The notes below the pieces were generated by a model. It had not been told where the DNA came from. It did no database searches and worked only from the letters and a program-made list of their open reading frames with translations. This document shows positions 28,588-55,543 of a DNA stretch of 64,000 bases, one piece after another; position 1 is the first letter of the stretch; each line of letters starts with the position of its first letter. Origin of the DNA: Maricaulis maris (GTDB taxonomy: Bacteria; Pseudomonadota; Alphaproteobacteria; Caulobacterales; Maricaulaceae); NCBI RefSeq assembly GCF_036322705.1, contig NZ_AP027270.1:1489501-1553500 (forward strand), in the 5' to 3' direction. The position numbers and the translations under genes were made by a program.

Positions 28588-28612
28588 CGCCTCTTCGGAA
28601 CACTTATAGAAC
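28584..28612 (+). promoter_or_regulatory. lexA promoter overlapped by an SOS box
   Basis: The -35 TTGACG (28584-28589) and -10 TAGAAC (28607-28612) are 17 bases apart. An alphaproteobacterial SOS box, read as GAAC-N7-GAAC (28598-28612; GTTC-N7-GTTC on the other strand), covers the spacer end and the whole -10, so bound LexA would block RNA polymerase. A weaker GTTC-N7-TGTC follows at 28634-28648. This is the expected autoregulation of lexA. Confidence 0.85.
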
Positions 28613-28683: not shown

Positions 28684-29382
28684 TTGCTGACGCGCAAACA
28701 GAACGAGCTTTTGCTCTTCATCCATGGTCGCATCAAGGAAACCGGGGTTTCGCCCTCGTTTGACGAGATGAAGGCCGCCCTGCAGCTGGCCTCCAAGTCG
28801 GGCGTTCACCGTCTCATCACCGCCCTGGAGGAGCGCGGCTTCATCCGCCGCCTCGCCCACCGGGCCCGCGCGCTGGAAGTTCTCAAACTGCCGGAGTCAG
28901 CGGCGGTCGCCGAAGCGCCATCCGTCCCCAAGGGCAATCTCGGCCCGAATGTCGTGCGCGGCAATTTCGCCAAGCCGGAACCGACCGACAGCGATGGCAC
29001 CATTGATGTGCCGATGCTCGGCCGGATCGCTGCCGGCGTCCCCATCGCCGCCATCCAGCACGAGACCGACCGCTTCGCCTTCCCGGCCGGCATGGTCGGT
29101 GCGGGCGAGCATTTCGCGCTTGAGGTCAAGGGTGATTCGATGATCGAAGCCGGCATCATGGATGGCGACACGGTCCTCATCCAGCGCTGCCAGTCGGCCG
29201 AAAACGGCACCATTGTCGTCGCCCTCGTCGATGACGAGGAAGCCACGCTGAAGCGGCTGCGCAAGAAGGGCGGCTCGATTGCCCTCGAAGCCGCCAATCC
29301 GGACTACGAAACCCGCATCTTCGGACCGGATCGCGTCAAGGTTCAGGGCCGTCTGGTCGGACTGATCCGCAAGTATCACTAG
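28684..29382 (+). CDS. lexA: LexA repressor (SOS response)
   Basis: 232 residues from a TTG start, with AGGGGG six bases upstream. An N-terminal winged helix domain (1-65, [18 protein letters not shown], then [15 protein letters not shown]) is joined by a long alphaproteobacterial linker (about 72-108) to the S24 peptidase domain. The cleavage site is A117-G118 ([10 protein letters not shown]), and the catalytic pair is S152 ([10 protein letters not shown]) and K190 (ATLKRLRK). It represses DNA-damage genes until RecA-stimulated self-cleavage. It is autoregulated by the SOS box in its promoter. It is convergent with comEC across a repeat-rich spacer. Confidence 0.97.
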
Positions 29383-53320: not shown

Positions 53321-53416
53321 TCAGGCAGCGCCGAGAACCGATCCCCACATGGCGATCATCCAAGCGAAACCCAAAACAGCTGTGGCAGCGGATACATCGT
53401 GAACCAGACGGCGCAT
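53321..53416 (-). CDS. 31-residue SOS-controlled membrane peptide, SidA-like
   Basis: A 31-codon gene: MRRLVHDVSAATAVLGFAWM followed by an 11-residue hydrophobic end (IAMWGSVLGAA). The basic N terminus (RR) and one hydrophobic helix of about 20 residues (S9-L28) predict a single-pass inner-membrane peptide. GGGGAG (53423-53428) lies six bases before the ATG, an ideal site. The promoter TTGACG-N17-TAGAAC carries a perfect SOS box over its -10. In Caulobacter crescentus, SidA is a 29-residue SOS-induced inner-membrane inhibitor of division acting on the FtsW/FtsN stage. Size, topology and control match, but homology is inferred and not tested. dnaE follows 134 bases downstream on the same strand. 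Confidence 0.72.
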   Translation of the reverse strand: MRRLVHDVSAATAVLGFAWMIAMWGSVLGAA

Positions 53417-53437
53417 GTCATTCTCCCCGAAATGCGT

Positions 53438-53452
53438 GTTCTGCATTTGTTC
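53438..53452 (-). promoter_or_regulatory. SOS box (GTTC-N7-GTTC) upstream of the 31-residue gene
   Basis: GTTC at 53438-53441 and GTTC at 53449-53452 with exactly seven bases between: the direct-repeat LexA operator of alphaproteobacteria. It overlaps the -10 (53449-53454) and the predicted transcription start, so LexA should repress the small gene and any dnaE transcription arising here. Confidence 0.82.
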
Positions 53453-53477
53453 TAAATCGGGGCGTGACAGGCGTCAA
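53449..53477 (-). promoter_or_regulatory. Promoter of the 31-residue SOS gene
   Basis: On the minus strand TTGACG (53477-53472) and TAGAAC (53454-53449) are 17 bases apart. Both hexamers and the spacing are identical to those of the lexA promoter in this window. Transcription would start near 53442, giving a leader of about 25 bases with the GGGGAG site. Confidence 0.78.
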
Positions 53478-53484
53478 GCGAAAT

Positions 53485-53499
53485 GTTCCACTTTTGTTT
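53485..53499 (-). promoter_or_regulatory. Second, imperfect SOS box
   Basis: GTTC (53485-53488), seven bases, then GTTT (53496-53499): one mismatch from the LexA operator consensus, just upstream of the -35. Its centre is 47 bases from that of the perfect box, so it could support cooperative repression; alone it would be weak evidence. Confidence 0.4.
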
Positions 53500-53529
53500 C
53501 ATGGGCGATTCGCGCGCGAGATCGCGAGG

Positions 53530-54219
53530 CTAGACAGGCTCATAGGGCGTGAGCCGGCCATCGGCGAAGGTCAGGATCCGGTCCATCCGGCTGGCCAGCT
53601 CGTGATTATGGGTCGCCACCAGGGCCGCCGCGCCCTCGGCCCGCACGGTCTCGCGAAAGGCCTCGAACACGGTTTCCGAGGTCACCGGATCAAGATTGCC
53701 GGTCGGCTCGTCAGCCAGCAGCACGTGCGGCGCGTTGGCCAAGGCGCGGGCGATGGCCACCCGCTGCTGCTCCCCGCCGGACAATTGCGAGGGCTGATGC
53801 AGGAGCCGGTCACCCAGACCCAGCTGGGTCAACAGGAGTTCGGCCCGCTCGCGCGCGGCCTTGGCCGGCACACCGGCGATCAGCTGCGGCAGGGTGATAT
53901 TTTCCAGCGCGTCGAATTCCGGCAGCAAATGGTGGAACTGGTAGACAAAGCCGATCTCGCGCCGGCGGATCGAGGTGCGGTCGCGGTCACTGAGATCCCG
54001 CGTGGCGCGCCCCCTCACCCGGACCTCACCGCCATCTGGGCGCTCGAGCAGGCCCGCCGCATGCAGGAGCGAGGACTTGCCGGAGCCGGACGGCCCGACG
54101 AGGCCGACAATCTCGCCCGGCGACAGGGTCAGGCTGGCTCCCTGCAGGACCGGCAGCTGACCCGCTTCGGTGACATAGGTGCGATCGATCGCGTCGAGCT
54201 CGAGAACAAATTCACTCAT
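53530..54219 (-). CDS. lolD: Lipoprotein-releasing ABC transporter ATP-binding protein LolD
   Basis: 226 residues from the ATG at 54219. ABC ATPase: Walker [17 protein letters not shown] (about 40-50), Q-loop [11 protein letters not shown], signature [15 protein letters not shown], Walker [13 protein letters not shown] and the switch His in [17 protein letters not shown] after the Q-loop is typical of the LolD/MacB group. It powers extraction of lipoproteins from the inner membrane to LolA. The start overlaps the lolC stop by eight bases. Confidence 0.95.
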
Positions 54220-55543
54220 AGCGCAGCGCCTCCACCGGATCGAGACGGGCCGCACGCCAGGCTGGCGGGATGGTCACCAGCAGCGAGATCGCAAAGCCGA
54301 AGACGGTGATGAAGACCACCTCACCCCAGTCGAGCTGGGCCGGAATGCGGTAGAGGTAATAGACGCTGGGATCCCAGACCTGGGCACCGGTCGTCCAGGT
54401 GATGAAGTCCTGGATCGGGCCGATGAAGGTGACGAAGAGAATACCGAGCATCAGGCCGGCAAAAGTGCCCGCCATGCCGATACTGGCGCCGACGATCAGG
54501 AAGACCCGCATGATCGAGGCGCGGGTCGCACCCATGGTGCGCAGGATGGCGATGTCGCGCGACTTGTTCTTCACCAGCATGACCAGGCCGGAAATGATGT
54601 TCATGGCGGCGATTGCGACGACAATGGACAGGATCAGGCGCATCGCCGTGCGCTCGAACTGGAGCGCGTTGAAGAAGGCCGGATCGAGCCGGGTGTAGTC
54701 GTAGACGGTGGCATTGAAGCCGGCGATGGCCCGGATCGTCTCGACGAAGAGCGGCGCCTGGTCGGGATCATCGAGCCGGACCTGGATCAGGTCGACCGTG
54801 TCACCGCGCAGGAAGAAGAGCTGGCCCTGCTCCAGCGGCATGAAGGCCAGGCTGTTGTCGATGGTCGAGACACCGGCAGCCAGGATGGCGCCGACATAAT
54901 AGGCCTTCTGCTGTGGCCGTGCGCCAAAGGCGGACGGCGCGGCCCGCGCCGACAGGAAGGTCACGCGGTCGCCGACACTGACACCGAGACGCTGGGCGAC
55001 TCCGGTGCCAAGGACGATCACATCGCCACCATTGCGGCCTTCACCGAACTCGCTGAGGTCGCCGAACTGCAGGCCGGTAAGGCTGCGCGGGTCATCCCCG
55101 GACTGGACCACATCCATCCGGGCAAGGTCCTCGGGACGCACGGCGAGCACCTGGAGAAAGGTTTCATACCGGTCCGAGGTCGCCATGACCTGGCCGGACA
55201 CCACCGGATCGGCGCTCTTCACGCCGGTCATCGCCTCGATTTCGGTCAGCAGGCGATCAATCTCGCCGGGATCAATTTCCCGAGTATCGACATAGACATG
55301 CGGCTGAAAGCCGAGAAGCTGGTTAAAGAGCTCGGCGCGGAAGCCGTTCATGATCGACATGACGGCGATCAGGCCGGTGACCGCGAGTGCGATGCCGCCG
55401 AAGGAGATCCAGGCGATCAGGGCGACGCCGCCATGCTTGCGACGGGCCCGCAGATAGCGAAAGGCGAGCAGGAATTCATACGGGCTGAAGGGACGTGCCC
55501 CGCCTGCCGATGCCGAGCCTGCTTCGCCACCCGCCTCAGTCAT
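54212..55543 (-). CDS. lolC: Lipoprotein-releasing ABC transporter permease (LolC/E family)
   Basis: 443 residues from the ATG at 55543, overlapping the proS stop by eight bases. Topology is typical: one N-terminal helix (about 45-67, [20 protein letters not shown]), a large periplasmic MacB-like domain (about 70-285), then three helices (about 293-320, 340-375 and 405-430). [19 protein letters not shown] is the characteristic N-terminal block. Alphaproteobacteria usually have a single LolC/E-type (LolF) permease acting as a homodimer, consistent with one gene here. It forms the LolCDE-like complex with LolD. Confidence 0.93.

Follow-up and report, generated by a model that had tools for sequence, protein, structure and literature searches.

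SidA of Caulobacter crescentus is a 29-residue inner-membrane protein of the SOS response that binds FtsW (PMC4211646), and its gene carries the locus tag CCNA_02004 (PMC11034885). Division is halted by SidA through FtsW, FtsI and FtsN, and not by a block on FtsZ of the SulA type (PMC4211646). DidA, from the same organism, is also a small single-helix inhibitor of FtsW/I/N, however its induction is independent of the SOS response and depends on DriD (PMC4211646). LexA-controlled membrane division inhibitors are described from other lineages as YneA of Bacillus subtilis and SosA of Staphylococcus aureus, and YneA also acts on FtsW (PMC13396833). The E. coli peptides TisB and DinQ are very small, single-helix and SOS-induced as well.

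The locus described here lies in a window of 64 kb of DNA (the whole stretch that was analysed) and contains a 31-codon frame directly upstream of dnaE. Like sidA, it has a LexA box, codes for a peptide of similar length (31 against 29 residues) with one hydrophobic helix and a basic N terminus, and is positioned before the gene of the replicative polymerase. The frame is very probably a real, LexA-repressed gene, an ortholog of Caulobacter sidA that would trigger a block of division during the SOS response. The presence of a LexA operator, read from the DNA, would argue against a DidA-type induction via DriD. The resemblance to YneA and SosA, which were compared by description and belong to another lineage, is one of functional analogy only. 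TisB and DinQ, also set apart by description, are membrane-acting toxins with control at the RNA level and have no slot in common with the window gene.

Organization of the peptide gene

On the minus strand the gene order is lolD, the 31-codon frame and dnaE. The features of the locus are as follows.

53530..54255, minus strand: lolD, lipoprotein-releasing ABC ATPase, the upstream neighbour
53499..53485, minus strand: second LexA box, AAACAAAAGTGGAAC, with one mismatch, 47 bp upstream of the perfect box
53477..53472, minus strand: -35 hexamer TTGACG, separated from the -10 by a 17-bp spacer; TTGACG is present in most genus members
53454..53449, minus strand: -10 hexamer TAGAAC, seen in most genus members
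53452..53438, minus strand: perfect LexA box GAACAAATGCAGAAC (GAAC-N7-GAAC), overlapping the -10 and kept in relatives
53428..53423, minus strand: Shine-Dalgarno sequence GGGGAG, with the ATG six bases on; relatives also have a purine-rich Shine-Dalgarno sequence here
53416..53321, minus strand: probable sidA ortholog, 31 codons plus TGA, MRRLVHDVSAATAVLGFAWMIAMWGSVLGAA, from the open reading frame, with a basic N terminus and a single hydrophobic helix
49743..53186, minus strand: dnaE, replicative DNA polymerase III alpha subunit, the downstream neighbour; the MGAHYPF start is inferred and the frame is open to 53291

The frame, the GGGGAG, the TTGACG-N17-TAGAAC promoter, the perfect box and the near-box had all been proposed in an earlier sequence-only reading of this DNA, and each was found exact to the base. 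Read on the plus strand the perfect box GAACAAATGCAGAAC is GTTCTGCATTTGTTC (GTTC-N7-GTTC). The 5' leader of the peptide gene has a predicted length of about 26 nt. The peptide begins with MRR and reaches a Kyte-Doolittle maximum of 1.7 over 19 residues. An in-frame ATG further upstream, at 53446, would give a peptide of 41 residues; this start was rejected in favour of the 31-residue one because the residues it adds are not conserved and because it falls within the operator, close to where transcription is expected to begin. Searches of Pfam and NCBIfam with the 31-residue peptide gave no match, and a gene of this size is expected to be overlooked by standard gene calling.

The LexA box in the window and in the genome

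Three GTTC-N7-GTTC sites were found in the window against 1.6 expected, and within the window the pattern by itself is weak evidence. Over the whole genome the count was 78 sites, compared to 43 for the reversed pattern. Twenty stretches around box sites, picked mostly by their AT-rich spacers, were examined, and among these several boxes precede lexA, recA, the divergent uvrA/ssb pair and ruvC, with further boxes before a UvrD/PcrA-type helicase gene, the PA0069 radical-SAM gene and mmcB. Because the classic SOS genes here carry the same box, we infer that it is a working SOS signal in this genome. LexA control of the peptide gene is predicted from the perfect box on its -10, which is conserved in relatives. 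The repressor expected to bind the box is encoded within the window.

28598..28612, minus strand: LexA box from the pattern scan, 86 nt before lexA (autoregulation)
28684..29382, plus strand: lexA, the SOS repressor gene (TIGR00498 above cut-off; Pfam PF01726 and PF00717)

The lexA gene has a TTG start and comes after trpC. It is about 20 kb from dnaE, and by gene number (CC1902 and CC1926) the two are also near each other in Caulobacter. The interval between the divergent uvrA and ssb genes contains a pair of perfect LexA boxes at a distance of 218 bp (G000:C1:801000-803500, L230). The division and cell-wall cluster begins with mraZ, and a perfect LexA box was seen some 135 nt upstream of this gene (G000:C1:2202000-2205000, L236), which is possibly a second link between the SOS response and division.

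Selection and conservation in the genus and family

Related loci were collected using the N terminus of dnaE as the anchor. A search with the peptide itself recovered it from 17 of the 18 other genus members, and the one genome that gave no match is 65% complete. Across the 17 members the variable columns at codon positions 1, 2 and 3 numbered 16, 6 and 25 of 31, and the mean pN/pS was 0.23 in the proposed frame whereas both shifted frames (+1 and +2) gave values above 1. The 31-codon frame is under purifying selection and, given this codon-position bias and pN/pS, is not a product of chance. The bias towards synonymous substitution, which the sequence-only reading had suggested looking for, is present across the genus members compared.

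A profile built from 22 peptides of the family gave matches in all sampled genomes of the family apart from two and a third with a doubtful match. The loci of relatives keep lolD, LexA box, peptide and dnaE in this order; the distance from the box to the ATG is usually within 34–57 nt, and in most relatives it is 34–36 nt. In many congeners the second, upstream box is perfect and lies 46–47 or 58–59 bp from the first, spacings that are close to half-integral numbers of helical turns. One congener, on a draft contig (L008), has about 1.1 kb between the sidA ortholog and dnaE with box and peptide intact, therefore the sidA ortholog can stand apart from dnaE.

Comparison with the Caulobacteraceae and with SidA

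A peptide of 29–31 residues occupies the same slot before dnaE in all 20 sampled genomes of the Caulobacteraceae. Box and frame are kept together between lolD and dnaE from the family of the window into the Caulobacteraceae. This is the opposite of the outcome that the sequence-only reading had named as refuting, a persistent box with a frame that relatives do not keep. The comparison of dnaE neighbourhoods that had been suggested from the sequence showed the slot of box, peptide and dnaE in nearly all of the first family and in 20/20 of the second. The box is perfect in 15 of the 20 and has one mismatch in five (G106 and four genomes from a single Caulobacter clade; L255–L258 and L260, for example GAACAAAAGTGGAAT and GAACAAACAAGCAAC). 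Scans for perfect boxes therefore miss sidA in these genomes, and the peptides behind the one-mismatch boxes were recovered by profile search.

In Caulobacter vibrioides DSM 9893 the slot peptide has 29 residues. The Caulobacter dnaE gene is CC1926 and recN is CC1983 (PMC1839093), while recN in NA1000 is CCNA_02062 (PMC12700426); this offset of 79 places dnaE at about CCNA_02003–02005, beside sidA. From its length, regulation and locus-tag arithmetic we infer that the dnaE-adjacent 29-mer of Caulobacter is SidA.

When the window peptide was aligned with the C. vibrioides 29-mer the alignment was free of gaps from Met1, with G16-F17-x-W19-M20 (GFxWM, residues 16–20) common to both. BLASTP of the window peptide against the Caulobacter slot peptide gave an E value of 1e-4, and the same pair gave P of about 1e-4 against within-block shuffles. 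Comparison of the family profile with that of the Caulobacteraceae using hhalign gave a probability of 95% and an E value of 2e-8. The homology is modest, with 8 of 29 residues identical between the two peptides. One clear difference is the C-terminal third, where the family of the window has W24 and the Caulobacteraceae have A25; the C-terminal half of the 31-residue window peptide is centred on W24, while the Caulobacter peptide ends in AxLVA. The operators differ also, as the window gene has two boxes 47 bp apart, one of them over the -10, and the Caulobacter gene has three clustered boxes or near-boxes. The proposal that the window gene is the counterpart of SidA was supported by the slot, the 29-residue length, the locus-tag position and the gap-free alignment with the dnaE-adjacent Caulobacter 29-mer.

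Distribution in the Alphaproteobacteria

In a sample of the order, 25 of 27 box-bearing regions upstream of dnaE carried a suitably spaced one-helix ORF, compared to 6% at random positions. One of the two misses (L085) has a clear SidA-like peptide that falls slightly below the hydropathy cut. A sample of the class consisted of 60 dnaE loci, drawn from roughly 60 other families of the Alphaproteobacteria; a perfect LexA box lay within 600 nt upstream of dnaE in 10 of the 60, and in 9 of these 10 a one-helix micro-ORF then followed, while one-helix ORFs occurred at 1.3% of random positions in the same regions.

Five named contigs of the Hyphomicrobiales (L157, L161, L162, L165 and L166) have a LexA box and 31-residue peptides before dnaE, for example MSLLARNLFSAISMSLFLFMIFTWVTILSAV. 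These peptides have a pN/pS of 0.30 and match the window peptide in register at F17, M20, W24 and L28; profile comparison gave 70%. A narrow profile of the Hyphomicrobiales peptides (A3) found no match at E 0.001 in 385 genomes of the class, a sample with few close relatives. In another family (f5) the five peptides gave a pN/pS ratio of 0.80 and are too diverged for this test, and one of them (L100) did not align with the window peptide (shuffle P 0.49). Slot and operator agree in this family and in the majority of the class-level cases, with sequence similarity weak or absent. Homology in f5 is argued from slot and operator only, and common descent, there and in most class-level cases, is plausible. 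In one further family (f2, L109–L112) the SidA-like peptide was not found and lolD and dnaE nearly abut (about 99–152 nt), an apparent loss or relocation of the sidA-type gene in the whole family.

SidA-type genes may therefore be older and wider than published. A tentative reading, which we hold to be slightly less than an even prospect, is that a LexA-controlled one-helix micropeptide before dnaE was the ancestral SOS division inhibitor of the Alphaproteobacteria and that Caulobacter SidA is one branch of it. Under this reading the micropeptide would persist, mostly unrecognised, in the Caulobacterales, in part of the Hyphomicrobiales and in several further families, and many others would have lost it or moved it elsewhere.

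Proposed function and alternative explanations

In the proposed mechanism DNA damage would cause RecA to trigger the self-cleavage of LexA, and the promoter of the peptide gene would then open. The peptide would enter the inner membrane in the N-in orientation, with the basic MRR end inside, and keep the FtsW/FtsI/FtsN complex inactive, so blocking septal synthesis and holding septation until repair is complete. The organism has an FtsW, in which the alignment showed that the equivalents of Caulobacter F145 and A246 are both conserved. Mutation of either residue in Caulobacter FtsW suppresses SidA and DidA. As a consistency check, an FtsW with this conserved pair is consistent with a SidA-type target, and by analogy the peptide of this lineage would bind FtsW and inhibit division.

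It is improbable that the peptide belongs to the TisB/DinQ type, which would depolarise the inner membrane and slow metabolism with the divisome not targeted. Such peptides have the same gross anatomy, with about 30 residues, one helix and LexA control, and DinQ is a toxic single-transmembrane SOS peptide of E. coli (PMC3567139). This assignment is opposed by the orthology with SidA seen in slot, register and GFxWM motif, and by the conserved position before dnaE; neither an antisense RNA nor an upstream inhibitory leader was seen at the locus in a search of limited depth. Rather less probable still is a translated leader, an upstream ORF whose translation tunes the expression of dnaE while the peptide itself is inert. 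The ORF is just 5' of dnaE in nearly all relatives and the short gap permits co-transcription, however selection acts on the amino acids (pN/pS 0.23), the L008 congener retains box and peptide with more than 1.1 kb between peptide and dnaE, and the Caulobacter counterpart is active as a protein when expressed from a plasmid (PMC4211646). A chance frame within the LexA-regulated dnaE promoter, for which it could be said that short frames are common and that the box pattern is not rare in the window, has a negligible probability and is already refuted by conservation, as seen in the codon-position bias, the pN/pS of 0.23 and the joint occurrence of frame and box in the order and class samples.

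Significance

A search of the open literature for SidA homologs in organisms other than Caulobacter did not return any paper. SidA itself is known as an SOS division inhibitor; what is added to it here is the slot rule, the double operator and a hint of a spread well beyond Caulobacter. The slot rule, by which a LexA box, a micropeptide and dnaE follow one another, locates the gene where sequence searches and gene callers fail, and makes the SidA question directly testable in many species. It also provides more than 100 natural variants for mapping which residues of the peptide touch FtsW.
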